Notes: a model not told the origin generated them from the sequence alone. A DNA stretch of 53,078 nucleotides from Candidatus Sabulitectum sp. (GCA_023145375.1 JAGLDY010000054.1:1-53078); one strand, 5' to 3'; numbered from the stretch's first letter, positions 16,175 through 36,042 are shown. Translations and numbers: made by a program.

Positions 16175-16974
16175 CAAACACCCTCCCAGTAATTCAATGC
16201 GTTTTCCAGCACGATCTCTGCATCCTGAAAATCAAGCATAACGGCACTGTCACTGAGAGCACTCGCCGGGTTGGGATGGACCTCTATAAACATTCCTCTT
16301 ATACCCCAGGCTGCAGATGCCCGAGCCATTTGCACAGCAAATGTTCTGTCTCCTCCTGTGAACCTGCCGGCTGCTCCGGGTTTCTGGAGAGAATGGGTAA
16401 GGTCCATGATGACACCATCGCAAAAAGCTGACATCACCGTTAATGACCTCATGTCCACAACCAGATCGCCATACCCGAAAAAGCTGCCCCGCTCTGTAAG
16501 GAAAACGGAAGGACAACCGTTTGTACGAAGTTTATCAACGGCTCCTCTCATGTTACCAGGTGCCATGAATTGACCTTTTTTTACATTTACAGGGATTCCT
16601 GTTCTGCCTGCAGCTGTGAGCAGGGATGTCTGCCTGCATAAAAAAGCCGGGATCTGCAGCATCTGGCAGACTTCAGCCACAGGTGCTGCCTGGTCTGCGG
16701 AATGGATATCTGTAACAATTGGTAGATTGAATTCCCGGCGGGTCTTCTCCAGGATCCGCAATCCTTCTTCAAGACCCGGGCCAGCCCAGGAGCCTTCGGA
16801 AGTTCTGTTGTCCTTTAGAAAAGAACTTTTGAATAAAAATACCGCTCGATCCGCATACCTGGTTCTTAGACCATGAACAAACTCTGCTGTTCTAAGTACC
16901 AGTTCCTCTGATTCAATACCGCATGGGCCCATTATAAAGAGAGGAAGACCTGTCTCTATCTGTTCCTGAACCAC
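16174..16974 (-). CDS. kdsA: 3-deoxy-8-phosphooctulonate synthase (Kdo-8-phosphate synthase)
   Basis: Condenses arabinose 5-phosphate with phosphoenolpyruvate. The 266-residue TIM-barrel protein has GPCGIESEE at its N-terminus, FKSSFLKDNR, GPGLEEGLRIL, LPIVTDIHSADQ, IPAFLCRQTSLL, NVKKGQFMAPGNM and EVHPNPASALSD. The Cys in GPCGIES is the position that separates metal-dependent enzymes (Cys, as in Aquifex) from metal-independent ones (Asn, as in E. coli), so this looks metal-dependent. The GTG start is preceded by GAGGAGG and lies inside the kdsB end (19-base overlap). Confidence 0.95.
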   Translation of the reverse strand: MVQEQIETGLPLFIMGPCGIESEELVLRTAEFVHGLRTRYADRAVFLFKSSFLKDNRTSEGSWAGPGLEEGLRILEKTRREFNLPIVTDIHSADQAAPVAEVCQMLQIPAFLCRQTSLLTAAGRTGIPVNVKKGQFMAPGNMRGAVDKLRTNGCPSVFLTERGSFFGYGDLVVDMRSLTVMSAFCDGVIMDLTHSLQKPGAAGRFTGGDRTFAVQMARASAAWGIRGMFIEVHPNPASALSDSAVMLDFQDAEIVLENALNYWEGV

Positions 16975-17669
16975 TTTCTAGCCTCCTCCAGGTCATCCAG
17001 CGTATCGACTCCCATTGCATCCCAGACGCCGGGTATAACAGTAATTTGTACACCACTTTCCATCCAGCTGAGCTGTTCAAGTTTCTCCTGTCTGGAGAGT
17101 ATTCCCCAGGGAGAATTTGCGCAGAGACTCAGACTGTCCGGAGTAAAACAGTACACACCAACATGCTGATAGACAAAATCAGCACCCCATGGAATAGAGC
17201 TTCGAGAAAAATACATAGCTTTACCGCCGGGGCCCATTACAACCTTGACTGAAGACGGGTCTGCCCCTGAATCCCCGGGGATCTCACGGGCCAGTGTTAC
17301 CACGGAATGGGGCAGCATGTCCTGTGATTCAAGAGCATCGATCCAGGCGGGCTGAACAAACGGTTCATCTCCCTGGAGATTCACGATACGGTCTCCGGGA
17401 CATCCCAGTGCTTTCCAGGCATCATAGACCCTGTGGGTCCCGCTTTCTGCAGGTCCTGTTAAAACTGCCTCGTATCCGGCAGCGATGACCACTTCCTCTA
17501 TCTGTGTGGAATCTGTTGCCACAACCAGTCTGAATCTTTGCCGGTCACCGCTGGAAACCCCGTCAAGAACTCTAAGTATTAAAGGCCGACCACAGATATC
17601 CGCCAGGGGCTTACCCGGAAGCCGGGTAGACTCCATCCTGGCAGGTACTACAACTACCGTCCCAGCCAA
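16956..17669 (-). CDS. kdsB: CMP-Kdo synthetase (3-deoxy-manno-octulosonate cytidylyltransferase)
   Basis: Activates Kdo with CTP for transfer to lipid A. The 237-residue protein has the nucleotidyltransferase N-terminus VVVVPARMESTRLPGKPL, NLQGDEPFVQP near residue 100 and YFSRSSIPWG near 150, and a C-terminal GVDTLDDLEEARK block. The start is a TTG overlapping the end of the outer-membrane-protein gene by 16 bases; no strong Shine-Dalgarno is visible, suggesting translational coupling. It is followed by kdsA with an overlap. Confidence 0.95.
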   Translation of the reverse strand: MAGTVVVVPARMESTRLPGKPLADICGRPLILRVLDGVSSGDRQRFRLVVATDSTQIEEVVIAAGYEAVLTGPAESGTHRVYDAWKALGCPGDRIVNLQGDEPFVQPAWIDALESQDMLPHSVVTLAREIPGDSGADPSSVKVVMGPGGKAMYFSRSSIPWGADFVYQHVGVYCFTPDSLSLCANSPWGILSRQEKLEQLSWMESGVQITVIPGVWDAMGVDTLDDLEEARKWFRNR

Positions 17670-18803: not shown

Positions 18804-20213
18804 TCAGTTTGTTCCATCTATGTACATGGAATCGCCTGGTGCAGGGATCACAACCTCTACCTCTTCAGAACTGTCTTTCCCTATCAGCACTGCAAGAGCT
18901 TCAGCGGATCTCTTTTCGCCATGAACTACTGCCACCTGCTTGACATTTTCACCCACTGCATGGAAATATTTCATGAGGGCATCTGAATCCGCATGGGCAC
19001 TGAACCCGTCAATATCAACGATCTGAGCGTTAACAGCATAGGGCTCGCCAAATATGTTAACCGTTTCTCTCCGCTCGCCTATCTTGCGACCAAGGGTGTG
19101 CTCAGCCATGAATCCCACCAGAACAATGGTGCTGCGGGGATCTGTGATGTTGTTCTTCAGATGGTGCCTGATCCTTCCGTTCTCACACATTCCGGAAGCG
19201 GAGATAATGATCATAGGCTCTTTCATGGTGTTAATAGCCTTTGATTCCCCAACATTCTGAACAAAGTGAAGACTTCTGAACTGAAACGGACTGTGCCCGG
19301 CGTATAGAAGATCCCTTAGCTCCTTATCGTAAACTTCAGGATGCAGCTTGAATACTTCAGTGGCATTGAAAGAGAGGGGAGAATCCACATACACAGGAAT
19401 GTCCGGTAATCGACCTGCAACGAAGAGAAGGTTTAGAAAGTATAGAACTTCCTGTGTCCTGCCCACACTGAATGCAGGGATAATGACCTTCCCACCCCGC
19501 CTGGCAGTTTTTTTCACAACCTGTTCCAGATCAAGAAGTGACTTCTCCTGAAGCTCATGATTCCTGCCGCCATAGGTACTTTCAGTTATCAGAAAGTCCG
19601 GCCTGGAAGATAGATCAGGGTTACGGAGGATAGGTCTGTCAAAACGACCCAGATCACCTGTAAAAAGAAGTGTACGCTGTTTTCCATTCTCTTCAAGTAC
19701 AAGTTCAACCTGAGCACTGCCAAGTATATGCCCTGCTTCAAGAAAACGCAGAGTTACTCCGGGGAATATGGGGAAAGAAAGATCGTAGGGTATGGAAACG
19801 AATTTTTCAATGGCTGAAAGAGCATCCTCAAGGTCGTAGAGAGGTTCAACAGGTGGCAGGTCCTCTTTTGCCCGTTTCCTGTTCAGATATTCAGCATCAG
19901 CCTGCTGTATGTGCGCCGAATCAGGGAGCATGATCGCTGCAAGGTCTCTTGTGGCTCCAGTGGAAAAAATGATCCCCTTGAAACCATTCTTAACAAGTCC
20001 AGGTAGTTTCCCGGAATGATCTATGTGAGCATGAGACAGTATTACAGCGTCAAGTGAAGCGGGTTCATAACCGTACTCACGGTTCAGTCTTTCACTGTCC
20101 TGTCTTCTCCCCTGGCTGAGTCCGCAATCAAGAAGGATCCTTCTGCCGGCAACCTCAAGCAGATGCTGGGAACCGGTAACAGCCTGTGCAGCCCCGTAGA
20201 ATGTAATTTTCAA
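18804..20213 (-). CDS. Metallo-beta-lactamase/beta-CASP family hydrolase (CPSF-like RNase)
   Basis: A 469-residue two-domain protein of the CPSF73/RNase J-like class (COG1236). The MBL zinc motif SHAHIDHSG lies near residue 60, followed by EAGHILGSAQ, FTGDLGR and ITESTYG; the beta-CASP part contains IPAFSVGRTQEVL, ASGMCENGRIRHHL, GFMAEHTLGRKI and GFSAHAD. Such proteins are zinc-dependent ribonucleases that process RNA. I chose the TTG at 20213, six bases after AAAAGGAG, giving the usual MKITFYGAA start; the ATG at 20219 directly touches the Shine-Dalgarno. It is monocistronic, divergent from the metalloprotease and upstream of the OMP/Kdo operon on the same strand. RNA cleavage is inferred from family membership. 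Confidence 0.9.
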   Translation of the reverse strand: MKITFYGAAQAVTGSQHLLEVAGRRILLDCGLSQGRRQDSERLNREYGYEPASLDAVILSHAHIDHSGKLPGLVKNGFKGIIFSTGATRDLAAIMLPDSAHIQQADAEYLNRKRAKEDLPPVEPLYDLEDALSAIEKFVSIPYDLSFPIFPGVTLRFLEAGHILGSAQVELVLEENGKQRTLLFTGDLGRFDRPILRNPDLSSRPDFLITESTYGGRNHELQEKSLLDLEQVVKKTARRGGKVIIPAFSVGRTQEVLYFLNLLFVAGRLPDIPVYVDSPLSFNATEVFKLHPEVYDKELRDLLYAGHSPFQFRSLHFVQNVGESKAINTMKEPMIIISASGMCENGRIRHHLKNNITDPRSTIVLVGFMAEHTLGRKIGERRETVNIFGEPYAVNAQIVDIDGFSAHADSDALMKYFHAVGENVKQVAVVHGEKRSAEALAVLIGKDSSEEVEVVIPAPGDSMYIDGTN

Positions 20214-20291
20214 CGCCATCTCCTTTTATAGTGGGTAATTTGTTTCAATCTTTCGTATGCTTACTATGTTGACACACGGCCATTGTTGCAA

Positions 20292-20458: not shown

Positions 20459-22165
20459 ATGAGAATCGCCCTTATCACAATGTTGATTTTGAGCCTGTCC
20501 ATGTTCGCTGACACAGTTTATCAGCGAGTTGACAATGATCAAGATCTTACCGTGGACCAGAGAGCCTTGTATCTCGTTTACAGTGTTCTTGATAGAGACA
20601 GGCTTCCCCTTGAATACACTGCAGATGCTGTAAGTGAAAGAAGTGGCACCCCTGCTCTGCATGAGGCTTTGCTTCTTTCCCATGAGCTTTCATCTGCAAC
20701 TCTTCAGGAGATACTCACCCTGGCCGACCGACCGGTCCTCTCAGGAAGTCCTGCAACATTTGTTTCTGTGGGGGGCAACTTCAGGATACACTATACCACC
20801 ACAGGTATCGATGCCAGTAATCTTTCCTATGCCCAGGACATTGCCGAGTACATGGATTTTGCCTGGGAAGAAGAGTGCAACACAATGGGTTACTTCACCC
20901 CCCCGCCTGACAACAACATAGGTGGAGACAACCTCTACGACATTTACATAGCCTATATTGAAGGCAATACACTTGGGTATACCTCCCACGGCGGTGAATA
21001 CAAACCACCTGATTCAACTCACTCATGCAGCGCAAGTCACATTGTCATGAATACCGATCTGGGTCCAAATCACCAGAAAGTCACTTCAGCCCATGAGTTC
21101 CAGCATGCCATTCAGATGTCCTACGACTACGAGGAGCCCACATGGTTCATGGAGAACTGCGCAGTCTGGATGGAAGACCAGCTCTGGGACGATATAAATG
21201 ACTACTTGAGTTACTACTCCGGTGGAGCAATGAGAAAACCCTACAGGGGTATTGATGGTGGTGGCATGTACTGGTACGGAGCCAGCTTCTGGCCAAGGAT
21301 GATAGGGCTCATGTTCGGTATAGATTCAGTCCGCGAGGTCTGGGAGAACTGCGCCGCGACAAATGAAGCAAACATGTGGGACGCTCTGGATGACATGTTC
21401 ACAGCCCATGGAACAGATTTTGAGAACGGGTTCATGCTTTACGGTCTGTGGCGTTACATGGTGGGTCCTCAGTGGTACTCCTCTTTCAACATGTTTGATG
21501 AGGAAGCTGACACCTGGGGAACACCTCTTGTGTTCAGCTGGCACAACTTCACTACTCTTCCTGCCAGTGGAGATCAGGGAAGCTACCCGCAGTACCTTAT
21601 GGACGACCTTGGTATTGCCTGGATCAGGGTTGATCTTGCTTCCTACCAGGGTGGCTGGGTCCAGATGGACTTCGACGGAAGAGACGGCTACGAGTGGAAT
21701 CTGGGAGCAATCGTGTGGAACGATAACAACTTCCAGTTCACCTGGGTTGACTGCGATCCAACATCAGGAGAGAAGGCACTCTCTGTTCCCACTGAAGGCT
21801 GGGACTATGCAGTGTTCTTCCCTGCATTCATGACAAACACATCGTTCACTGCCAATTACACCTTCGAGATCGCCTACACAGCAGGAATTGAAGAGGGAGA
21901 ATCTCTCACCGGAACCGATCTTACAATTGGATCAAATCCCGTGATAGCTGGTTCTTCAGTAAGTTTCAACGCTCCTTCCACAGGTTATATGGACCTTTCT
22001 GTGGTTGACATGACAGGCCGGAGGGTTTCAACTCTCTTCAGTGGAGTTGCCCAGCAGGGTCTGCATTCCGTTGAATTCCAGGAAGATCTGGCTTCAGGGG
22101 TATACCTGGTTGTTCTCCGGCATGGAAATTCCGTAGAAACCGCCAGAGTATCGGCACTCAGATAG
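20459..22165 (+). CDS. Secreted zinc metalloprotease (MXAN_6640-like) with type IX-like C-terminal tail
   Basis: A 568-residue exported protein. A signal peptide is cleavable near residue 17. The zinc motif HEFQH (His212, Glu213, His216) with a downstream Glu in FMENCAVWMED (Glu232) places it with putative metalloproteases of the MXAN_6640 type. The last 85 or so residues form a beta-sandwich tail (GRRVSTLFSG, ASGVYLVVLRHG) resembling FlgD-Ig and type IX secretion sorting domains. It is likely secreted or surface attached and digests protein. GGAGG lies before the ATG. It is monocistronic, with a structured leader and a strong terminator after it. Substrate unknown. Confidence 0.8.
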   Translation: MRIALITMLILSLSMFADTVYQRVDNDQDLTVDQRALYLVYSVLDRDRLPLEYTADAVSERSGTPALHEALLLSHELSSATLQEILTLADRPVLSGSPATFVSVGGNFRIHYTTTGIDASNLSYAQDIAEYMDFAWEEECNTMGYFTPPPDNNIGGDNLYDIYIAYIEGNTLGYTSHGGEYKPPDSTHSCSASHIVMNTDLGPNHQKVTSAHEFQHAIQMSYDYEEPTWFMENCAVWMEDQLWDDINDYLSYYSGGAMRKPYRGIDGGGMYWYGASFWPRMIGLMFGIDSVREVWENCAATNEANMWDALDDMFTAHGTDFENGFMLYGLWRYMVGPQWYSSFNMFDEEADTWGTPLVFSWHNFTTLPASGDQGSYPQYLMDDLGIAWIRVDLASYQGGWVQMDFDGRDGYEWNLGAIVWNDNNFQFTWVDCDPTSGEKALSVPTEGWDYAVFFPAFMTNTSFTANYTFEIAYTAGIEEGESLTGTDLTIGSNPVIAGSSVSFNAPSTGYMDLSVVDMTGRRVSTLFSGVAQQGLHSVEFQEDLASGVYLVVLRHGNSVETARVSALR

Positions 22166-22179
22166 CAGACCAGATGCTT

Positions 22180-22215
22180 AAAAAAAGTGCCCGGCATAAT
22201 ACCGGGCACTTTTTT
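22180..22215 (+). terminator. Rho-independent terminator after the metalloprotease gene
   Basis: AGTGCCCGG (22186-22194) pairs perfectly with CCGGGCACT (22202-22210) around a seven-base loop, flanked by an A-run before and a T-run (to 22215) after. It ends the metalloprotease transcript and lies only seven bases before the ATG of the next gene. Confidence 0.92.
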
Positions 22216-22221
22216 CACACA

Positions 22222-22983
22222 ATGTTACTGCTTCTAGCTTTAGGAGCGGGGACAGGGTGTGTAAGTAGTGATGATACTGAAGGACAGGGCATCTCTCACG
22301 ACATACCTGCCACTGGAGATATCACCATGGTTATCCAGTTTGCAGGGACTGCCACGGGCGATTCAATGCCTGAAGCAGTGGTTCATCTTCCTTTCACTGC
22401 CGGTGGTCGGTTTCATCCGGCAGAAGAGTGCCATGACTGTTTCCAGACAGTTTTCGAAAATGCGGACAGCACCGGCAAGCTGATGATGGTTATAATCCCG
22501 GAGACTGAACAATTCAGTGGTTCCAGGGATCACCTGATAATATCCCTCGATCCCGGGGGAATTCCTGTGGCGGTAAGCCCTGATCTGGATTCACTTTTTC
22601 TGGTTGACAGCCTGTGGGAAGACCCGGTTGCAAGGCAGCAGACAGTACTTGAACTTGCGGTTTTCTTTAAACCTGAAATAGTTCTTCAATTCATAGAGGT
22701 GCCCCTAAGCAGTTCAGATGTAACAAGGTTCTGGAGTGACCACGGAGCAGAGAACAGCATAACTGCAGCTCTGTTCGTTTCCCCGGATGAAAGCATTCCC
22801 ATAAATTCAAGGGGCTGGGGTCTTTTCACAGGAAAAGGCATCAGAAGTGGTACATTGGAAGGATTGGACATGCCCGGATTTATCGCCACGGTGAGAATGA
22901 TATCAGGAATGGACTGGATCCACGGCGAAAGCGGATATCCGGCAATGCAGGCTTTCTTTGCCACAGAGTCGGAGGTACAATGA
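22222..22983 (+). CDS. Putative lipoprotein of unknown function
   Basis: A 253-residue protein whose N-terminus MLLLLALGAGTGC looks like a short lipoprotein signal, although the residues before the Cys (G-T-G) are a weak lipobox. No domain is recognised. The remainder is acidic, with strand-rich stretches such as ITMVIQFAGTA and an ISLDPGGIPVAVS block. The ATG at 22222 follows the terminator T-run; an alternative ATG at 22174 would place the terminator hairpin inside the coding region. Neither has a Shine-Dalgarno. It overlaps the next gene by four bases (ATGA), so it is the first member of a four-gene membrane operon. Function unknown. Confidence 0.6.
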   Translation: MLLLLALGAGTGCVSSDDTEGQGISHDIPATGDITMVIQFAGTATGDSMPEAVVHLPFTAGGRFHPAEECHDCFQTVFENADSTGKLMMVIIPETEQFSGSRDHLIISLDPGGIPVAVSPDLDSLFLVDSLWEDPVARQQTVLELAVFFKPEIVLQFIEVPLSSSDVTRFWSDHGAENSITAALFVSPDESIPINSRGWGLFTGKGIRSGTLEGLDMPGFIATVRMISGMDWIHGESGYPAMQAFFATESEVQ

Positions 22984-25277
22984 AGCTTAAAACCCTCATA
23001 GACAGATCGATAAGCTGGGGTGCCAACCTTCCTGCCACCCCATGGCAGCTTGCAGCTGTATTTACAGTAACTGTTATTCTAAGAAATCTCATGGAAGCTC
23101 TAACCCTGGGTATCGTGTTCCCCGCTCCTTCCTTTGTGCTTCATTTTCCAGTTGCTTACGTTTACCCCATGCTCACTCTTGTTTTTGTAATGAGAGTATT
23201 CAGCAGGTATGACACTGCCAAACTATTGAGAATAATGGTTCTTGCCTGGACCCTCACCCTTCTTCCTCCACTGATAGACAAGCTTGCCGGTACTACTTCA
23301 GCGATTGGGTATTTCCCCCTTGACAGAAGCAACGCAGTATGGTTCCTGCTGAATTTCTTCAACCCGCTCACGGCGTTGAACGGAACCACCACAGGTATTC
23401 GAATTGAAGCTGCAATCGGATGCGTTCTTGCCGGAGTATTTACCTGGGCAGTTGCTCCAGACAAAAGAGCTCTCAGGGGAATTCTAAACACGGTTGTTTT
23501 CGCTCCTGTATTCCTCACCTTCTTCACATGGCCCCACCTTGTCAGCGTGATCTTTCAGCCCTTCTTTCCAGGTGATGGAGTTACCCACTCTCTGCTTCAG
23601 TGGCATGCTGCAACAGAGGCGCCCACAACTGGAGCATCACACTTCACTACATATCTCATTGATATGATACCGGTCTCTCTGCTTGCGCTGTGGTATGTGA
23701 GAGAACTGGCAGAGGATCGCTGGAATGAGCTTAGTAAAAAAGTTGGATACCTCATTCCGCTCTACTCTTCTGCAGTTCTGGGAACGGTTGTAGCATTCAC
23801 AGTGATTCCTGGAAATGGAACTACTTTCGCGGATGTTGTAACAATTTCCGGTGCCCTGATGGCAACCTTCTGGCTGGTTACAGCATCCGTGTGGAAGGGT
23901 AGCTTCAGAGCAGTTGCTTCAGGTATTGCTTTAACACTTGCCTGGGCTTCGGGATGGGAAACTCTTGTTTTCGCGGGCCTTGCTCTTGCAGCAGGGGGAC
24001 TTCCCGGACCTGATAAGATACGAAAGGCTCTGTTTGGAACCGTTCTCTTCATCACTGCTCTTTCACCGGTTGGATTCTCTCTTTCCACTCCTGCAGCAGC
24101 TCTTGCGTTGTTGATAATCCCGGTAACTGTACTGCTGACTCAAAGAAAAAGAGCGCTTACATTACTTCTCACCGTTCCTCTTGCTGTGGCTCTTATCGCT
24201 CCACCCTCAGCAGAAGAGGGTGCCTGGCTCAGAGGAGTTTCAAGAAGAACTGACACTTTTGCCAGGTCAAGCAGGGTGGGTCTTGCTCTGGAATCTGCTT
24301 CACGCCTTGCCGCCGGAGGCGGATCATGGCTGACCCTCGGTGAAACAACCCACATGACCGGACAGAGCGAAAGATCCCGTTACGTCTGTGAGACAGCTCT
24401 GGCAAGAGGAGACTCCACCTCTTCACTGCTGAAAGTAATGATGAATCTGGCCTTTGCCAGGGCTGATACATCGGCATTCAACACCATTTTTGATATCTAT
24501 TCCAGTAACGCAGATGAATCAGAGCTTAATGCAGCTGTTACCATGAGGGTAACATTCCTCTCTTTAACCGGAGACACAGCATCGCTGAACTACATTCATT
24601 CCAGAGGAGGAATGAATCCCATGCTTCTCAGGTCCATGGCAACAGCTCAGTTAATACAGGGAGACACCCTCCGTTCTCTTCAGTATTCAAGGGCATTTCT
24701 CGATTCGCCTGCAGCTGCTGCAGAAGACTGGGCAAAAACGATCACCCTTGCAGCAATAACAGGTGGTGCCGACTGGGATTCGCTCTACATCGAAGCGGAA
24801 GAGATACTGGGCAAGTGCCTTCCTGTTATGCTGGCAAGGCTCAGGGCGTCTGTGATCGCAGAAGGCAGGGCCGACAGAAGAGACCTTCTTGATAGATGTA
24901 TTCTTATAAAACCGGATGGCTCAGAGGTTCTGGAGACTGCAGCAATGTGGTATTCTGCCGCTGGTGACCCTGAGAGCACCCTTCTTTTTGCTTCCAGAGC
25001 AATAGCTTCGCAGACGACTCCCTCAAGAACAAGTTTCTCACTTGCTTTGAATGCAGCTCTTAACTCGGGAAAATTTACCGAAGCAGCCATTACAGCCAGA
25101 TACGCCATGTACTGCTATCCTGGAAATGCGGGTCATAGAGCAGTCCTTGCAGGGATCCTGAAGGCTCAGGGCTATTCTGTGGAAGCAGAGCTGCTTCAGG
25201 AATCATTCAGCGGGATACTCTGGGCAGAGACCCTGTGCGATTCCCTTGAGTCAGTGGTATGTGCAGCAGAAAACTGA
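22980..25277 (+). CDS. Polytopic membrane protein with C-terminal helical (TPR-like) region
   Basis: A 765-residue protein I do not recognise. Residues about 20-405 hold roughly ten to twelve hydrophobic segments. Residues about 430-765 are soluble, with paired helices resembling degenerate tetratricopeptide repeats (SLLKVMMNLAFARADTS, ETAAMWYSAAGDPESTLLFA). GGAGG precedes the ATG, which overlaps the upstream lipoprotein stop. The 3' end overlaps the DUF2723-like gene by 19 bases. The context with two GT-C-type proteins suggests a role in glycan transfer or envelope assembly, perhaps as a scaffold. That is inference from neighbours only. Confidence 0.65.
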   Translation: MKLKTLIDRSISWGANLPATPWQLAAVFTVTVILRNLMEALTLGIVFPAPSFVLHFPVAYVYPMLTLVFVMRVFSRYDTAKLLRIMVLAWTLTLLPPLIDKLAGTTSAIGYFPLDRSNAVWFLLNFFNPLTALNGTTTGIRIEAAIGCVLAGVFTWAVAPDKRALRGILNTVVFAPVFLTFFTWPHLVSVIFQPFFPGDGVTHSLLQWHAATEAPTTGASHFTTYLIDMIPVSLLALWYVRELAEDRWNELSKKVGYLIPLYSSAVLGTVVAFTVIPGNGTTFADVVTISGALMATFWLVTASVWKGSFRAVASGIALTLAWASGWETLVFAGLALAAGGLPGPDKIRKALFGTVLFITALSPVGFSLSTPAAALALLIIPVTVLLTQRKRALTLLLTVPLAVALIAPPSAEEGAWLRGVSRRTDTFARSSRVGLALESASRLAAGGGSWLTLGETTHMTGQSERSRYVCETALARGDSTSSLLKVMMNLAFARADTSAFNTIFDIYSSNADESELNAAVTMRVTFLSLTGDTASLNYIHSRGGMNPMLLRSMATAQLIQGDTLRSLQYSRAFLDSPAAAAEDWAKTITLAAITGGADWDSLYIEAEEILGKCLPVMLARLRASVIAEGRADRRDLLDRCILIKPDGSEVLETAAMWYSAAGDPESTLLFASRAIASQTTPSRTSFSLALNAALNSGKFTEAAITARYAMYCYPGNAGHRAVLAGILKAQGYSVEAELLQESFSGILWAETLCDSLESVVCAAEN

Positions 25278-26743
25278 TACTTCTCGGGATCTCGGCAACC
25301 GTATTCCTGATAGCCCTTCTAACGGGACCATCATCATTCGATGCAACAGACGGGGCGGAATTTGCAGTGTGCGGAGGTGAGCTTCAGATAGCCCATGCGC
25401 CTGGCTATCCTCTCTTTCTTATGCTTGTCCGCTTCTTCTCAATGATCTTCTCACCGGTATACGGCCACCTGAGGCTGCTCAACTGCTTTCTTGCTGCAGC
25501 AGTGGTCTGGATGGGAACAGCAGCTTTTCAAAGATCGGGTACTGGATTTCTTCCCGCTCTGGCAGGTTCTCTTCTGTTTCTTACTTCAGCTCCTGTAATG
25601 AGCCAGTTCAACAGTCTGGAGATCTATCCTCTGGCGATACTTCTGGTTCTCACTGCAATGTATCTGAAGGACTCCGCTCTGTCTCCCTACGCTTCAGGAA
25701 TGGCTTTGTTCGCCGGGCATCCGGTCTCCCTGCTGTCCAGCCCTCTCTTTTTCTCATTTAAGAGAAAGTGGCCCCTTATTCTGACATTTCTCATACCTGC
25801 GACTCTCTATCTTTACATCCCAATACGGTCAGGAGCGAGCAGGATAGCCCATTACGGGCATCCAGCCTCTCTGGAAACCCTTTTCAATTACTTCACCATG
25901 TATTCTGGAAGACTGGGTACTCCATCCTTTAACAATCTTTCCCTGGCACTGAGTTCCATTGGAATTCCAGCCCTGGTTGTTTTTGTACTTCTTGCAACAG
26001 CCGGTGGCAGATTCTCCTTCAGGCGGGATATTCCAATAATTGCATCTTTGATATTTCTTGCCTCCTATGAACTTCCGGACCCGGCAGGGCAACTTTGGAT
26101 ACTACTGCTTCCCCTCTCTCTGAGATGTTCCACGGGAATAGAGAAACTCTTTGTTAAAAAAGCAGCGCACAGGATACTTGCTGCAGGTCTCATATTGATC
26201 GCGATTGTAAGCGGGATAGCAGGAGCTGACAGAACAGGTGATGACATAGCAATGAGATGGACCACAGATGTGATGTCTTCCCTGCCTGCGGGTTCTGTTT
26301 ACAGGCCAGTTGCTCACGATACCTACTATGCTGCTTACGCTCAGACAGTTCTTGGGTTCCGACAGGATGTTCTGCTTTCAGACCCCTTTGGAAACTACTT
26401 TGAGTATTCACCACCGGGGCCTGTACCTTCCTCCCTTGGTGGAAGAACGGTTCATATTTCCAGAGCCTGGAACAGGGAAGAAAGCTTTTCTCTTCAGGGA
26501 CTCGTCTTCAGCCCGATAAATTTCAGAGAGGAACCCCTGAACTGGGAGCAAATGGATATATTCAAGTTTCAGAATCGTTCCCCTGACCCGATGGCAATGG
26601 ATATAATTGCTGAGGCATGGGCAAGGAGGATGCTACAGGAAGAATCCCCTTCGCTCAGGGACAGTTTTTATCTTAGAGCTGTAGAATTCTCGGCCACACC
26701 CGTTACCCGGAGAAGAATTGAGAATATCAAAGAGAATATCTGA
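25259..26743 (+). CDS. DUF2723-like GT-C fold membrane protein (putative glycosyltransferase)
   Basis: A 494-residue polytopic membrane protein. Residues about 27-51 contain the DUF2723 signature: an acidic Asp31-Glu34 pair in TDGAEF followed by HAPGYPL (His46 to Pro51), in the first periplasmic loop as in GT-C enzymes such as protein O-mannosyltransferases, where acidic loop residues are catalytic. Several further helices follow to about residue 340, then a soluble C-terminal part. Family members are thought to use lipid-linked sugars, though most are uncharacterised. It overlaps both neighbours (19 and 26 bases). No strong Shine-Dalgarno precedes the ATG, which fits coupling. Donor and acceptor are unknown. 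Confidence 0.72.
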   Translation: MCSRKLILLGISATVFLIALLTGPSSFDATDGAEFAVCGGELQIAHAPGYPLFLMLVRFFSMIFSPVYGHLRLLNCFLAAAVVWMGTAAFQRSGTGFLPALAGSLLFLTSAPVMSQFNSLEIYPLAILLVLTAMYLKDSALSPYASGMALFAGHPVSLLSSPLFFSFKRKWPLILTFLIPATLYLYIPIRSGASRIAHYGHPASLETLFNYFTMYSGRLGTPSFNNLSLALSSIGIPALVVFVLLATAGGRFSFRRDIPIIASLIFLASYELPDPAGQLWILLLPLSLRCSTGIEKLFVKKAAHRILAAGLILIAIVSGIAGADRTGDDIAMRWTTDVMSSLPAGSVYRPVAHDTYYAAYAQTVLGFRQDVLLSDPFGNYFEYSPPGPVPSSLGGRTVHISRAWNREESFSLQGLVFSPINFREEPLNWEQMDIFKFQNRSPDPMAMDIIAEAWARRMLQEESPSLRDSFYLRAVEFSATPVTRRRIENIKENI

Positions 26744-29033
26744 GGCCACGGTACTCTGCTGGCTGCTCACGTCCATAGCGGTGCTGTACTGCATCACCCC
26801 CATTCACAACGGCAACATATTCTGGCACCTCAGAAACGGTATTGATATTGTTGAGACGGGAGAGATCAGAACACAGGACCCGTTCACATGGACAAGGCAG
26901 GGAGCTTACTGGATACAACACGAATGGCTTGCAGAATCTGCCATGGCACTTTCCTGGATACACATTGGTGAAGCAGGTCCTGTACTGCTGAAGGCTCTTT
27001 TCATCGGTCTCTCCATCTTCCTGGTGTACAGGGCTTCCGTTAAGAATGGTGGAGATCCAGGTCTTGCCTTTGTTCTTGGAGCCTTCTGGCTGGCACTTGC
27101 TCAACCTAGATGGATTGCCAGACCGCATTTTTTCAGCATCTTCTTTTTCTCACTCTACCTGTACATACTTTCCTTCAAATTTGAAAAACCCTGGAAACTT
27201 GCTCTGCTCCTCTTCCCCATACAGATCCTATGGGTCAATGTTCATGCGGGATTTGTCATGGGGCTGTTCCTTGCTTCAGTTCCTGCAATGAAAGAACTAC
27301 TGCATGGTAGATACAAAAACTTTGGAAAGTGGCTGCTTCCTCCGGCGGCACTGCTTCTTGCAAGCGGGATCCATCCAAATGGTTTTAGAACTCTGGAGTA
27401 CCTGCCTGCATTTCTCGCTCAACCTCTGTTCAAGCAGTCCATAAGGGAGTGGTGGAGCCCGTTTGACCCAAGATACGCACCTGAAAAAGTCATTTCCCGA
27501 ACTGCCCTGCTTCTTTCCGCGCTTACCCTGGGCACAACGGCTCTTGTACTTCGGTATTCAAAACAGTTAGACAGAGGAAAGCTCCTTGCCCTTCTGATGC
27601 TGATAGTGGCAACTGTGTTTGCCGCCCGCAACGGCGAACTCCTTGCACCTGCCATGCTGGCCTGGGTACCTGGAATGATAAAGCTGCGAATTCCCATGAA
27701 GTACGCTGTTGCATCTGCTGTGATCCTGGCAGTTATCCCCTTCGTCTATGGAGTTCCAAGAGAGATCGGTCCTCCCAGAGAGCTGGGGGCCTGTGTGGAC
27801 TGGACAGTTTATCCTGTGGACCTTGCTGATCTTCTTGAAGAACACCCTGCCCTGATGGAGCATGCGGTTCTTTTCAATACAAATGAGATATCCGGATACC
27901 TTGAATTCAGGTTCGGAGAGAAATTTCCTCTGTTCGTTGACGGAAGATGCCTTCTCTTTCCTGAAGCATTCCACTGGGACTACCTTATGCTCACAGAGGC
28001 TCCGGGAGAGGGGTTCACCGCTTTGCAGAATGACCTGTTGCAGCAGTACGGATTCAATCTTCTGATCTATAACACAAGAAATCAATACTCTTCAGTTCAT
28101 CTTGCGGCATCGCTTCCCCAGTGGATTCCCATTCAGATGAACGGGCTCACAAGCACGTATGCAACAAAGGAACTGCTGGAGGAAACCGGTCTGGATTCTC
28201 TTGCTTTCCGTTACTATGATCCACTTGATCCTTCAGCTTTCCTGACAACACCTCTCTACTTCCTGCCTTCTCAGGCTTTGAGCGAACTGCTGGAACAGAA
28301 GGATCAACTGGGTATCACTGTTCTTGACCCGGCAATAGGATCTCTTCTGTTCAGAACAGATACCACATTTTCCACAGATACCTTGTCCGTTGAAGGCATC
28401 TGGCCAAACACTCTTCAGTGCTGGGAGTACTGCAGAAGGAATGATCTTGTATCGGCTGCAGCAAAGGCCGATCTGACTGAAGACCCTTCGCTGCAGGCGG
28501 CAGTTGCATTTCTGCAGAACCCGATCCTTACTGAAGGAGACGGAATAATGGGAATCACGCCAAACATTGTCAGGACGAAATGGGATGAGAAAGCAGCTCG
28601 AATTACTTCTCTCTGGGTCACCGGACAGCAGATCATATCTCTTCATGAGGCGGACATGTTCATGGATTCTCTCCCACCATGGGGCGTTGCCCAGTGTGCA
28701 TGGTTATATTCCCTGTCTGGACAGCAGGAGCACGCTTTGGAACTGGTGGAACTTGCTCTGTCCAGAGCGCAGGGTCCTATTGTGCTGGAAAGGTCTGCCA
28801 GGGTATTCAGCATAGGTGGTGATCTTCCCCATGCTGTGGAATACTGCAGGCGGGCGGTGGCAATGTCACCGGGCTTTGCCGAGGCAAGACTGTTACTGGC
28901 TGACTGCCTGTGGGATTTGAACAGACTGAAAAACGCAGAGGTGGAATACCGCTGGTTCGAGAACAATGAACTTGCACTTCCGGAATACGCATTACAGCGT
29001 CTTTTGCTGATACGAGAGCTGGAAAACAGATGA
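26718..29033 (+). CDS. Large GT-C-like membrane protein with C-terminal TPR region
   Basis: A 771-residue protein. The N-terminal half (about 10-350) is polytopic, beginning with a helix and then a loop containing FWHLRNG, TQDPFTWT and QHEWLAE, a pattern typical of uncharacterised bacterial GT-C-like proteins (Asp54, His68, Glu69). A middle soluble domain (about 355-600) contains FNTNEISGYLEF and FVDGR blocks, and the last part (about 660-771) has two or three TPR-like helix pairs. The only sensible start is TTG at 26718, five bases after GGAG, overlapping the upstream gene by 26 bases. Together with the previous genes it forms a candidate envelope glycosylation unit; this is inferred. Confidence 0.65.
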   Translation: MRISKRISEATVLCWLLTSIAVLYCITPIHNGNIFWHLRNGIDIVETGEIRTQDPFTWTRQGAYWIQHEWLAESAMALSWIHIGEAGPVLLKALFIGLSIFLVYRASVKNGGDPGLAFVLGAFWLALAQPRWIARPHFFSIFFFSLYLYILSFKFEKPWKLALLLFPIQILWVNVHAGFVMGLFLASVPAMKELLHGRYKNFGKWLLPPAALLLASGIHPNGFRTLEYLPAFLAQPLFKQSIREWWSPFDPRYAPEKVISRTALLLSALTLGTTALVLRYSKQLDRGKLLALLMLIVATVFAARNGELLAPAMLAWVPGMIKLRIPMKYAVASAVILAVIPFVYGVPREIGPPRELGACVDWTVYPVDLADLLEEHPALMEHAVLFNTNEISGYLEFRFGEKFPLFVDGRCLLFPEAFHWDYLMLTEAPGEGFTALQNDLLQQYGFNLLIYNTRNQYSSVHLAASLPQWIPIQMNGLTSTYATKELLEETGLDSLAFRYYDPLDPSAFLTTPLYFLPSQALSELLEQKDQLGITVLDPAIGSLLFRTDTTFSTDTLSVEGIWPNTLQCWEYCRRNDLVSAAAKADLTEDPSLQAAVAFLQNPILTEGDGIMGITPNIVRTKWDEKAARITSLWVTGQQIISLHEADMFMDSLPPWGVAQCAWLYSLSGQQEHALELVELALSRAQGPIVLERSARVFSIGGDLPHAVEYCRRAVAMSPGFAEARLLLADCLWDLNRLKNAEVEYRWFENNELALPEYALQRLLLIRELENR

Positions 29034-29060: not shown

Positions 29061-30602
29061 ATGTCGATCAAAAGTAGATTAACCGAATTTGGTTCAAAGG
29101 TACAGAATCTTTTCAAGGGTGGCGGTGATATAGCCCAGGAGAAGCAGAAGAAACGGGGAAAACTCACCGCGAGAGAAAGAGTTGATGAGATACTGGACAC
29201 CGATTCATTTCTAGAGACCGACCTCTTCGTAGAGCACTCCTCCACTGACTTCGGCATGGACCGAAAAAAACTTGCAGGTGATGGTGTGATCACCGGATAC
29301 GGTAAGATAAATGATCGCCCTGTTGCCTTATTTGCCCAGGATTTCACAGTCGCCGGAGGATCGCTTGGCAAAGCTCATGCAGCCAAGATCGTTAAGGTAA
29401 TGGATGGTGCCGGTACAAAGAAGATCCCGCTGATCGGTATCAATGACTCCGGTGGAGCCAGGATCCAGGAAGGCGTTGACTCCCTTTACGGCTACGGTGA
29501 GATATTCCTGAGAAATACCACCTTCAGCGGTGTTATCCCTCAGCTCTCTCTGATACTTGGACCATGTGCAGGAGGCGCGGTGTACTCGCCGGCACTTACT
29601 GACTTTGTCTTTGTTGTGGAGAAAATATCCAACATGTTCATCACCGGCCCGCAGGTCATTAAGACGGTTCTTGGTGAAGATGTTTCCCCGGAGGTTCTTG
29701 GAGGTGCAAAGACCCACACATCTGTTACAGGCAACGCCCACTTCTACGCTCAGACAGAGCAGGAGGCATTCGGACAGATCAAGAGGCTCTTGAGCTTCCT
29801 GCCGGCCAACTGCCTTGAAGCATCCCCTGTATACAGGTCCGCAGCCCCGGTGAAGGACATAACAGACAACATCATTCCCGATAACCGCAGGAAAGCCTAC
29901 GATGTTACAGATGTGATAAAGGGCCTGGTGGACAACAGCGACTTCATGCAGGTTCATGAGCATTATGCAAAGAACATTGTTGTCGGATTTGCCAGAATGG
30001 ACGGCAAGACAGTAGGAGTTGTCGCCAACCAGCCCAGATACCTGGCAGGAGTCCTTGATGTCAACGCATCCGACAAGGCGGCAAGGTTCATCCGTTTCTG
30101 CGACGCCTTCGGCATATCTCTGCTCACCCTGGTGGATACACCCGGTTATCTCCCCGGTGTTGATCAGGAGCATGCAGGTGTTATCAGGCACGGTGCCAAA
30201 CTCTTGTATTCATACAGTGAGGCCACTGTTCCCAAGGTCACGATCATCATGCGCAAAGCATACGGCGGAGCATACATTGCCATGTGCAGCAGGCACCTTG
30301 GCGCCAGCAGCGTTATCGCCTGGCCCACTGCTGAGATAGCGGTCATGGGTGCTGAAGGAGCTGCGAACATAGTCTTCCGCAAGGAGATCGCTGCAAGCGA
30401 TGACCCTGAAGCCATGCGTCAGCAGAAGATAGACGAATACGAAGACAAGTTCGCCAATCCGTATGTGGCTGCCTCCAAGGGTTATGTTGATATTCTAACC
30501 GAGCCTCACAAGACAAGGAACATTGTTATCAAGGCGTTCGAGTTTGCAGGGGTACAGGATCATGGCAACTCCTTCCGCCGCCACGGCAACATTCCTCTTT
30601 AG
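29061..30602 (+). CDS. Acyl-CoA carboxylase carboxyltransferase subunit (propionyl-CoA carboxylase beta / methylmalonyl-CoA decarboxylase alpha type)
   Basis: A 513-residue carboxyltransferase with the full double-crotonase layout. Blocks include KKRGKLTARERVDEILD, FAQDFTVAGGSLG, GINDSGGARIQEGVDSL, LGPCAGGAVYSPALTDF, ITGPQVIKTVLGEDV and LVDTPGYLPGVDQE. It exchanges carboxyl groups between biotin and propionyl- or methylmalonyl-CoA. The biotin carrier follows directly. No biotin carboxylase or membrane decarboxylase beta subunit is in the window, so carboxylase, transcarboxylase and sodium-pumping decarboxylase roles remain open. A GGGGAGGG stretch precedes the ATG. A 27-base gap separates it from the GT-C gene, so it may share that transcript. 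Confidence 0.92.
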   Translation: MSIKSRLTEFGSKVQNLFKGGGDIAQEKQKKRGKLTARERVDEILDTDSFLETDLFVEHSSTDFGMDRKKLAGDGVITGYGKINDRPVALFAQDFTVAGGSLGKAHAAKIVKVMDGAGTKKIPLIGINDSGGARIQEGVDSLYGYGEIFLRNTTFSGVIPQLSLILGPCAGGAVYSPALTDFVFVVEKISNMFITGPQVIKTVLGEDVSPEVLGGAKTHTSVTGNAHFYAQTEQEAFGQIKRLLSFLPANCLEASPVYRSAAPVKDITDNIIPDNRRKAYDVTDVIKGLVDNSDFMQVHEHYAKNIVVGFARMDGKTVGVVANQPRYLAGVLDVNASDKAARFIRFCDAFGISLLTLVDTPGYLPGVDQEHAGVIRHGAKLLYSYSEATVPKVTIIMRKAYGGAYIAMCSRHLGASSVIAWPTAEIAVMGAEGAANIVFRKEIAASDDPEAMRQQKIDEYEDKFANPYVAASKGYVDILTEPHKTRNIVIKAFEFAGVQDHGNSFRRHGNIPL

Positions 30603-34234: not shown

Positions 34235-35266
34235 TCAGATAAGCTCAGGTCTTGATCTTTCCAGGGTGGTAACCACCTCTTTGATACTCTGCGAGCGGGA
34301 ATCAGACATTACAAGAGTTGCCTTTTCGGTGGAAACAACGCTGACGTTGTCCAATCCTATAACAACAGTTAACCTGCCTGTTTCATCGAACACAAGAGTG
34401 TTCTCTGAATCGATGATAATACTGTCACCTTTTGAAACACCTGCGCCCCTGGCTCCGGGCCAGTCGCCAATATCACTCCACTGGAAGAGTGCAGGCACAA
34501 CGACCGCTCTGTCAGTATTCTCCATCAGTCCGTAATCAATTGACTGGGATTCCAGTGCACCGTACTCTTCCAATGATGGAGATGTTGTATCAGGAAGCCT
34601 CTTTATGTTCCTGTAAAGATCAGGCATATGCTTTCTGAACTCCTCAAGGAAGGAATCAACTCTCCAGATGAACATTCCTGAGTTCCAGAGATATTCTCCT
34701 GATCCAAGATACCTCTCTGCAGTTGCTGCATCAGGTTTCTCCCTGAAGCTCTTCACTCTATTGCCAGGGGGGATATCTTCACCTGTCTGAATGTATCCGT
34801 AGCCTGTTGCAGGGTTGTCCGGAGTGATGCCTATGGTACAGAGATAACCCTTTTCAGCAAGTTTCACAGCATTGGCAATGGTTTCCTCGAACAGGTCAAC
34901 CGGCTGGATACTGTGATCACTTGCGGCCACTATCATTATGCTTTCGCTAAAGCCTCTCCTTCTCAATGTCTCCGCAGCCCAGCCAATACATGCGGCTGTG
35001 TTCCTGCCCACAGGCTCCAGCAGAAGATTACTCTCTGGAAGAAGAGGCAGCTGGTTTGCTGTTACGTCTCTGTAGTCAGCTCCAGTAACGACCAGCACGC
35101 CGTCCGGTCCGGATATCTTTGAGAACCTGGATGCTGTGATCTGGAGCATTGTTCCGCCACCCAGCAGATCCATGAACTGCTTTGGACGGGATAGAGTGGA
35201 AACTGGCCAGAAACGGGTTCCCTTCCCCCCTGCCATTATCACTGCAAACACTCTTTTGTCGTTCAT
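34235..35266 (-). CDS. manC: Mannose-1-phosphate guanylyltransferase
   Basis: Makes GDP-mannose from mannose 1-phosphate and GTP. The 343-residue protein has the nucleotidyltransferase signature AGGKGTRFWPVS near residue 12, SRPKQFMDLLGG, EPVGRNTAACIGWAA, FREKPDAATAERYL, YLWNSGMFIW and QWSDIGDWPG. The C-terminal isomerase domain of bifunctional enzymes is absent; manA is encoded separately just upstream. The ATG at 35266 follows GGGGG; an extension to 35338 lies in manA and is discarded. It is the last gene of the long minus-strand run and convergent with the GAF-phosphatase gene. Confidence 0.93.
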   Translation of the reverse strand: MNDKRVFAVIMAGGKGTRFWPVSTLSRPKQFMDLLGGGTMLQITASRFSKISGPDGVLVVTGADYRDVTANQLPLLPESNLLLEPVGRNTAACIGWAAETLRRRGFSESIMIVAASDHSIQPVDLFEETIANAVKLAEKGYLCTIGITPDNPATGYGYIQTGEDIPPGNRVKSFREKPDAATAERYLGSGEYLWNSGMFIWRVDSFLEEFRKHMPDLYRNIKRLPDTTSPSLEEYGALESQSIDYGLMENTDRAVVVPALFQWSDIGDWPGARGAGVSKGDSIIIDSENTLVFDETGRLTVVIGLDNVSVVSTEKATLVMSDSRSQSIKEVVTTLERSRPELI

Positions 35267-35268
35267 TC

Positions 35269-36042
35269 TTATACCCCCACGATCCATGAATCTTCCGTTG
35301 TTATAAGTGATCCGCCGGCTGGATCTGCGAAGAAACATTCTTCTGTCTCCGGTAAAAATACCACTTCCAGCGGTCTCAATTTCAACTCACCAGGTTCCGC
35401 TCTGCGCATGTAGTAAGAACCGGCATCGAGGAGATCTGCATCCACTTCAGTGGCTCTTCCCATTGTCTCCCAGTTTATAGCTGAAAGCCCAGACTCCACA
35501 TGAAGCTCTCTGAGATTTCCATTGTTATCCTTTCTGGCATAGTCCCATAGACGGTAGGTAATACTGCAGTTCAACTGAACCTCCAGCACTGTCAGCCCTG
35601 CGCCCAGGGCATGAACGGTTCCACCGGGCAGGTGAACAAGAACGCCCGGTTCTCCCTTGATATGCTGCAGCAAATTCTCCACAGAGCCATCCTTAACCGC
35701 TTTCCTGAATTGAACTGGTGTCACGCCTGGAGTGATACCATGCACAATTCTGCCGAAGCCACTTAGCACTACCCATGATTCATCCTTAATTGGCAGTGTT
35801 CTATCCCAGCCTGGATGCACCTGAACAGACAGGTCGCTGGCTGCATGAAGAGTTTTTATGACCAGCGGGAATGAGCCTTCGGGAAAGAAATCACAGGCTC
35901 TCCTCTGTTCTCCACCTACGCTCTGCAGGACAGTATCGCTGAAAAACCACCATACCTCTCCCACAGGTTCCTCACCGGTATTCTCAGGGGGAAGAGAACC
36001 CCATATTCTACTGACTTTCTGAGGAAGACACTGATAGATCAC
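35269..36042 (-). CDS. manA: Mannose-6-phosphate isomerase, class I
   Basis: Interconverts fructose 6-phosphate and mannose 6-phosphate, feeding GDP-mannose. The 257-residue cupin-type protein has zinc-site blocks SVQVHPG (near residue 74), GGTVHALGAGLTVLEVQ and NCSITYRLWDYAR. It is shorter than many class I isomerases, comparable with the compact Bacillus type. The GTG start overlaps the upstream amidotransferase stop by four bases and the stop is two bases before manC. A phosphomannomutase gene is not in the window. Confidence 0.9.
   Translation of the reverse strand: MIYQCLPQKVSRIWGSLPPENTGEEPVGEVWWFFSDTVLQSVGGEQRRACDFFPEGSFPLVIKTLHAASDLSVQVHPGWDRTLPIKDESWVVLSGFGRIVHGITPGVTPVQFRKAVKDGSVENLLQHIKGEPGVLVHLPGGTVHALGAGLTVLEVQLNCSITYRLWDYARKDNNGNLRELHVESGLSAINWETMGRATEVDADLLDAGSYYMRRAEPGELKLRPLEVVFLPETEECFFADPAGGSLITTEDSWIVGV

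Follow-up and report, generated by a model that had tools for sequence, protein, structure and literature searches.

A repeatedly lost three-gene unit of the Fermentibacterota as a candidate periplasm-facing glycosylation module

Results

Four overlapping genes encode a lipoprotein and three membrane proteins

The window analyzed here is a stretch of 53,078 nucleotides from Candidatus Sabulitectum sp. (GCA_023145375.1, JAGLDY010000054.1). ORF calling in the window revealed four ORFs on the plus strand, LP, P2, P3 and P4, which overlap by 4, 19 and 26 bases. These genes and their immediate neighbours are as follows.

20459–22165, plus strand: secreted metalloprotease of the MXAN_6640 family, bearing a C-terminal T9SS-type sorting domain (NF045524, 2e-47; TIGR04183 over cut-off), the conserved upstream neighbour
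22174–22983, plus strand: LP, lipoprotein (269 aa, lipobox Cys at residue 29)
22980–25277, plus strand: P2, N-terminal membrane domain, putative UbiA-derived domain and TPR repeats (765 aa)
25259–26743, plus strand: P3, TMEM260-like GT-C membrane protein without TPRs (494 aa)
26718–29033, plus strand: P4, probable GT-C-like membrane protein with a periplasmic alpha/beta domain and C-terminal TPRs (771 aa, TTG start)
29061–30602, plus strand: biotin-dependent carboxyltransferase, the conserved downstream neighbour, whose gene tree served for counting the losses

An earlier note on this DNA had described a lipoprotein gene and three large membrane-protein genes joined by overlaps of these lengths, and both ORF calling and the recurrence of the arrangement in relatives bear this out. 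Within the genus the overlaps of 4, about 19 and 26 bases recur, and across the order the 4-base LP/P2 overlap and the short P2/P3 and P3/P4 junctions are mostly kept; the overlaps are therefore not due to chance. All four motifs that had been picked out by eye (DATDGAEF, HAPGYP, TQDPFTWT and QHEWLAE) were found to be present. The named relatives of P4 came from Candidatus Sabulitectum and Fermentibacteraceae genomes, which places the host in the Fermentibacterota. The genomes sampled for comparison were mostly metagenome-assembled and of varied completeness, and all of the evidence presented here is computational.

The start of the lipoprotein gene had previously been placed at 22222. However, a start at this position would leave just 12 residues ahead of the lipobox Cys, and the relatives align from an upstream Met; the start at 22174 is therefore more likely. 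LP had no match in Pfam or in the PDB, and the residues invariant in the alignment of its relatives were C29 and R213-G214-W215. The idea, formed by eye from the C-terminal RGW region, that LP is a decayed alkaline-phosphatase-type phosphodiesterase was rejected for want of Pfam, PDB or hhalign support, the hhalign probability of LP against PF01663-type proteins (the genomes' own phosphodiesterases) being 0.07%.

P2, P3 and P4 are lost together while LP is retained

The earlier note would have been refuted by a lack of adjacency in relatives, but the genes proved to be neighbours there, with synteny holding in the genus, the family and the order, and the arrangement protease–LP–P2–P3–P4–carboxyltransferase–biotin carrier was kept in most contigs spanning the region. 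Among 42 genomes of the order, P2 was present in 28 and P4 also in 28; the two occurred together in 26 genomes and were both missing from 12. P4 was found without P2 in just two genomes, both of which are fragmented. Genus g5 has lost P4 alone and kept P2 and P3, and in one of its genomes (G016) the carboxyltransferase directly follows P3. Profile searches of genomes outside the order never found P2, P3 and P4 homologues together. Thus, the co-occurrence of four families suggested earlier holds for the P2–P3–P4 order within this taxonomic order, but LP is separable and the families were not found together elsewhere. A cross-phylum system was considered and discarded, as the P2 and P4 homologues lay in unrelated neighbourhoods, with the P3 homologues elsewhere in those genomes.

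Module-free genomes were numerous (12 of the 42 lacked P2, P3 and P4), and the junction was readable in 10 of these 12. At all 10 readable junctions LP directly precedes the carboxyltransferase, and a remnant of the P4 C-terminus lies between the two; 0 or 1 of 300 shuffles, which preserved dinucleotide blocks only, gave as good a match. In genome G032, the first P2 codons are fused to the last 53 P4 codons. The retention of LP and the carboxyltransferase with a P4-tail remnant between them indicates that the P2–P3–P4 block was deleted, and such scars indicate that the module was ancestral in the genomes that carry them. On the carboxyltransferase tree, a single gene tree with some weakly supported forks, the deletions map to three positions. 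One is a clade of five, another a clade of four, and the third is G032, whose fully supported sister, G022, is intact.

A lone deletion removes adjacent genes whatever their jobs, so it is the repetition of a loss that spares LP and the carboxyltransferase that argues for a unit, and this unit is P2–P3–P4. The lipoprotein had been taken for a fourth member; however, LP was retained in every readable genome without P2–P3–P4. Because LP outlasts the loss of the other genes, the obligate unit comprises three genes, and LP is a neighbour of the module and not a core part of it.

Two genomes carried disrupted versions of the region. In G031 (C72; L089:6593-8716), which lies near the deletion clades, P2 contains an in-frame TAA while P3 and P4 are still open, and this stop may represent early decay or an assembly error. 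In G011 (C7; L085), all genes of the region are broken up across several reading frames, which most likely reflects faulty sequencing or assembly of that genome.

P3 is a member of the TMEM260 family

TMEM260 (GT117) is a protein O-mannosyltransferase of the endoplasmic reticulum. In Pfam, P3 scored above the cut-off of PF11028 (TMEM260-like, formerly DUF2723; 31.7 vs 24.2 bits, E 1.6e-7), and the P3 profile found one solved protein, human TMEM260 (9rql), at E 6.5e-8 over residues 31–224. In the profile alignment, FDATDGAEF...HAPGYPLF of P3 aligned with GDSGEL...HPPGYPLF of the human protein. This part of P3 maps to the following segment.

25340–25414, plus strand: P3 first-loop motif D28, D31, E34, H46, P48 (DATDGAEF...HAPGYP), from alignments

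All five residues were invariant in 18 relatives. The DUF2723 GT-C signature reported earlier is therefore confirmed by both the Pfam score and the match to human TMEM260, and P3 is, on the basis of its sequence, a GT-C of the TMEM260 family and a predicted transferase. The two proteins share family membership, the loop-1 D..E and the HPPGYPL motif, whereas the TPR region of the human enzyme, said to serve substrate recognition (PMC11292533), has no counterpart in P3, which at 494 aa gave no TPR match in Pfam; TPRs are found in P4 and P2 instead. This difference bears on substrate choice more than on family membership.

A second DUF2723/TMEM260-like gene, of about 1000 aa, was observed at G000:C24:159109-159696, and DUF2723 genes of about this size occur in most family and genus genomes, module-less ones included.

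P4 is likely a GT-C-like protein with a TPR tail

TMTC1–4 (GT105) are GT-C enzymes with C-terminal TPRs. P4 had been described in the earlier note as resembling GT-C proteins and carrying TPRs. Of this description, the TPRs are supported by Pfam and the topology by a structural model, but no sequence match to a GT-C family was obtained. Two regions of P4 are distinguished.

26718–27752, plus strand: P4 membrane part, about residues 1–345; 11 TM in the model, with D54, E244 and R304 conserved
28395–29030, plus strand: P4 C-terminal TPR region (Pfam, model), whose tail is the remnant in module-deleted genomes

Two helices occupy the first loop in the AlphaFold model of P4 (pLDDT 83), in which we count 11 TM together with an alpha/beta domain and TPRs; the loop around residues 53–65 is of low confidence. 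Enzymes of the TMTC type are laid out with loop-1 helices, a long TM7–TM8 loop, and an Arg between TM9 and TM10 (PMC7801869). Compared with that description, the P4 model agrees with the GT-C layout (7–13 TM, an acidic two-helix first loop and a long TM7–TM8 loop) and places Arg304 between TM9 and TM10. Twelve residues were invariant in 19 sequences from unrelated genomes (G41, D54, W65, W70, R135, P136, W172, N174, E244, R304, D408 and R410), and the charged ones appear to lie on the periplasmic side of the model.

P4 and the TMTCs thus share, in the model, a GT-C-like membrane part, the loop-1 helices, the TM7–TM8 loop, the TM9–TM10 Arg and the TPR tail. In contrast to the TMTCs, P4 has an alpha/beta periplasmic domain inserted between the membrane part and the TPRs, and the bacterial family around it is broad and unnamed: its membrane-part profile matched proteins in many unrelated genomes, while many other matches in the search were to the TPRs only. 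Neither P4 nor ten distant relatives matched a GT-C family in Pfam, TMTC models included, and a profile search of the PDB linked P4 to no GT-C. P4 was also considered as a sequence relative of P3, for which hhalign gave no support. Foldseek searches with whole models were swamped by TPR repeats; with the P4 model, the archaeal oligosaccharyltransferase AglB (3wak) ranked 32nd, below TPR matches, as a weak hit (E 5.9e-3, TM-score 0.29). Given a layout that matches the TMTCs and an AglB hit no higher than rank 32, P4 is likely, rather than demonstrably, GT-C-like.

P2 joins an undescribed membrane domain to a putative vestigial UbiA domain

UbiA prenyltransferases include polyprenyl-phosphate phosphoribose synthases. 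A relationship to this group emerged for P2, which is divided into three regions.

22980–23729, plus strand: P2 N-terminal domain, about residues 1–250 (invariant columns, topology)
23742–24209, plus strand: P2 putative vestigial UbiA domain, about residues 255–410 (both Asp motifs absent; alignment with PF01040 relatives)
24267–25214, plus strand: P2 TPR-like region, about residues 430–745 (Pfam in the family, model)

Pfam matched TPRs in 9 of 18 members of the P2 family and no other domain in any. The possibility that P2 is a GT-C was rejected, as no relation to P3 or P4 was found and UbiA-bearing relatives turned up instead. The P2 profile found ten relatives outside the order, four of which scored above the PF01040 cut-off (1.6e-21 to 3.3e-33). 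Alignment revealed both UbiA Asp motifs (NDxxDxxxD and DxxDxxGD types) in L128, L133, L134 and L135 and partial motifs in some other distant relatives, but none in the aligned Fermentibacterota P2 sequences, which also lack the second-half loops. Compared with UbiA prenyltransferases, P2 additionally has the N-terminal domain and TPRs. PF01040 is absent from P2 of the window, and the significant similarity to the UbiA-bearing relatives resides in the N-terminal domain. Based on co-linearity with relatives whose corresponding segment contains PF01040, we infer that the P2 middle domain was derived from UbiA and that its catalytic Asp motifs were lost.

Ten residues of P2 are invariant even in distant relatives (R35, E39, H55, P96, P97, G139, R141, E143, P185 and G268), and those of the N-terminal domain lie mostly near the periplasmic side in the model. 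The model gave 13 TM, with boundaries placed by hand, a cytoplasmic N-terminus and periplasmic TPRs, and the positive-inside rule fits this topology in all 18 members. The N-terminal domain is an undescribed membrane domain. Members of the Lipocone superfamily have a four-helix core with His, Glu and Asp on helices 2–4 (PMC12419801), and membership of this superfamily is a lead only.

The N-terminal domain occurs together with an intact or partial UbiA domain in the distant relatives L126, L127, L128 (1184-10293), L133, L134 and L135. The L128 gene adjoins two phosphodiesterase genes and a PHP gene, and the L134 gene lies near the isoprenoid gene gcpE/ispG. Tandem type I phosphodiesterase membrane proteins, apparently paired across the genus, are encoded at G000:C35:55406-58836 and resemble the pair beside the L128 gene.

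Sugar-nucleotide, flippase and secretion genes

Two loci of the window concern sugar nucleotides.

16956–17669: KdsB-like sugar-nucleotide gene
34235–36042, minus strand: GDP-mannose supply, mannose-1-phosphate guanylyltransferase-like (TIGR01479, 6e-87) and mannose-6-phosphate isomerase-like (TIGR00218, 2.6e-14), both matches below the equivalog cut-offs

The GDP-mannose supply genes lie 5 kb from the module on the other strand. No gene for a polyprenyl-phosphate-sugar synthase or a flippase was found beside the module, where the conserved neighbours are the protease, LP, the carboxyltransferase and the biotin carrier. A GtrA-type flippase was present in just 2 of 33 Fermentibacterota genomes and was dismissed as a general partner. 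Nearly all Fermentibacterota genomes searched encode an SprA-like type IX translocon (TIGR04189 above cut-off; G000:C13:4220-9544), which occurs with and without the module, so that a link to type IX secretion was discarded.

Discussion

We favour, with moderate confidence, the view that P2–P3–P4 constitutes an inner-membrane, periplasm-facing glycosylation module in which two GT-C transferases act with a partner derived from UbiA. Both P3 and P4 would transfer a sugar from a polyprenyl-phosphate carrier to an acceptor lying beyond the membrane. P2, its UbiA motifs gone, would organise the complex or the lipid carrier, and its periplasm-facing N-terminal domain would probably bind or hand over that carrier. 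P4 and P2 carry TPRs, periplasmic by the topology model, which may serve to bind the acceptor or to keep the three proteins in one complex, and acceptor recruitment could be shared between P4 and P2; for human TMTCs and TMEM260, TPRs have been proposed to recruit acceptor domains (PMC11292533). Exported proteins would be the most likely acceptors, at a guess. Mannose, for which GDP-mannose supply genes lie 5 kb away, would be the first sugar to try, likewise just a first guess. Several results speak against the favoured view: P4 matched no GT-C family by sequence and AglB only weakly, no donor synthase or flippase gene was found beside the module, the trio was not found together outside the order, and many genomes do without it. 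In a more elaborate version, to which we assign a low probability, the P2 N-terminal domain would be a periplasm-facing enzyme acting on polyprenyl-phosphate or phospholipid head groups and feeding lipid-linked sugars to both GT-Cs, making the trio a self-contained donor-to-acceptor machine on a dead UbiA scaffold.

Extracytoplasmic GT-C modules with lipid-linked donors are already known. In the pentofuranose (GT136) system, a single GT-C works with a flippase and a polyprenyl phosphoribose synthase that is catalytically complete (PMC11127046). In both the Gtr/GT136 systems and the module described here, GT-Cs expected to use periplasmic lipid-linked donors are encoded beside membrane partners. 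The partner there is a polyprenyl-phosphate donor synthase, whereas here it is a putative UbiA-derived protein devoid of the catalytic motifs, two GT-Cs replace one, and an adjacent donor synthase and flippase are missing. Characterised bacterial GT-C modules of similar style modify O antigens (PMC11127046), which raises the possibility that the trio decorates a surface polysaccharide by adding side chains or caps, like Gtr/GT136 post-polymerisation systems, and does not act on proteins. Its patchy presence and repeated loss would fit a variable surface glycan, the window holds the KdsB-like and GDP-mannose genes, and nucleotide-sugar genes, annotated by eye, occur near one distant relative of P2. 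However, no donor synthase or flippase was found next to the module, the sole characterised relatives of P3 act on proteins, and the P4 TPR tail resembles that of the protein-recognising TMTCs; we consider a polysaccharide acceptor possible but clearly the less probable case.

It appears very unlikely that P3 and P4 have given up sugar transfer and that the trio forms a structural or chaperone complex through its TPRs, for example in lipoprotein or type IX export. The lost UbiA motifs of P2 do mean that one degenerate enzyme is already there, and the genome encodes both an SprA-like translocon and, just upstream, a protease with a type IX-type tail. Yet decay would not have preserved the loop-1 D, D, E, H and P of P3 across the order or the candidate catalytic residues of P4 across unrelated genomes, and SprA is also found in module-less genomes. 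Equally little credence is given to the notion that genes with unrelated jobs are adjacent through conserved chromosome order alone: although the surrounding protease, lipoprotein, carboxyltransferase, biotin carrier and TPR lipoprotein genes are also syntenic and a single deletion takes adjacent genes together regardless of their jobs, losses in three lineages took P2, P3 and P4 and spared LP and the carboxyltransferase, the coding overlaps are conserved, and P4 occurs without P2 in no genome except two fragmented ones.

For the favoured glycosylation module, the combination P2–P3–P4 was not found described in the literature searched, which covered few subscription papers, in keeping with the earlier note's view that no characterised operon has this set. 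A literature search for DUF2723 found nothing, and one for Fermentibacterota with glycosyl found a general treatment only. We know of no characterised function for bacterial homologues of human TMEM260. The conserved trio of a TMEM260-type protein, a TPR-bearing GT-C-like protein and a putative UbiA-derived protein is a defined, repeatedly lost unit through which bacterial TMEM260 function may be probed, and the natural deletions provide ready comparisons with and without it in an uncultured phylum. In addition, the membrane family to which P4 belongs is widespread and unnamed, and that of the P2 N-terminal domain is undescribed.

Two minor observations concern the upstream side of the locus. 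The MXAN_6640-family metalloprotease is duplicated in tandem in relatives L081, L084, L086, L087, L094 and L095. At 18804–20219 of the window lies a metallo-beta-lactamase/beta-CASP ribonuclease-like gene, which among NCBIfam models is closest to that of type VII CRISPR Cas14, but at half of the cut-off score; it is therefore probably a housekeeping nuclease.
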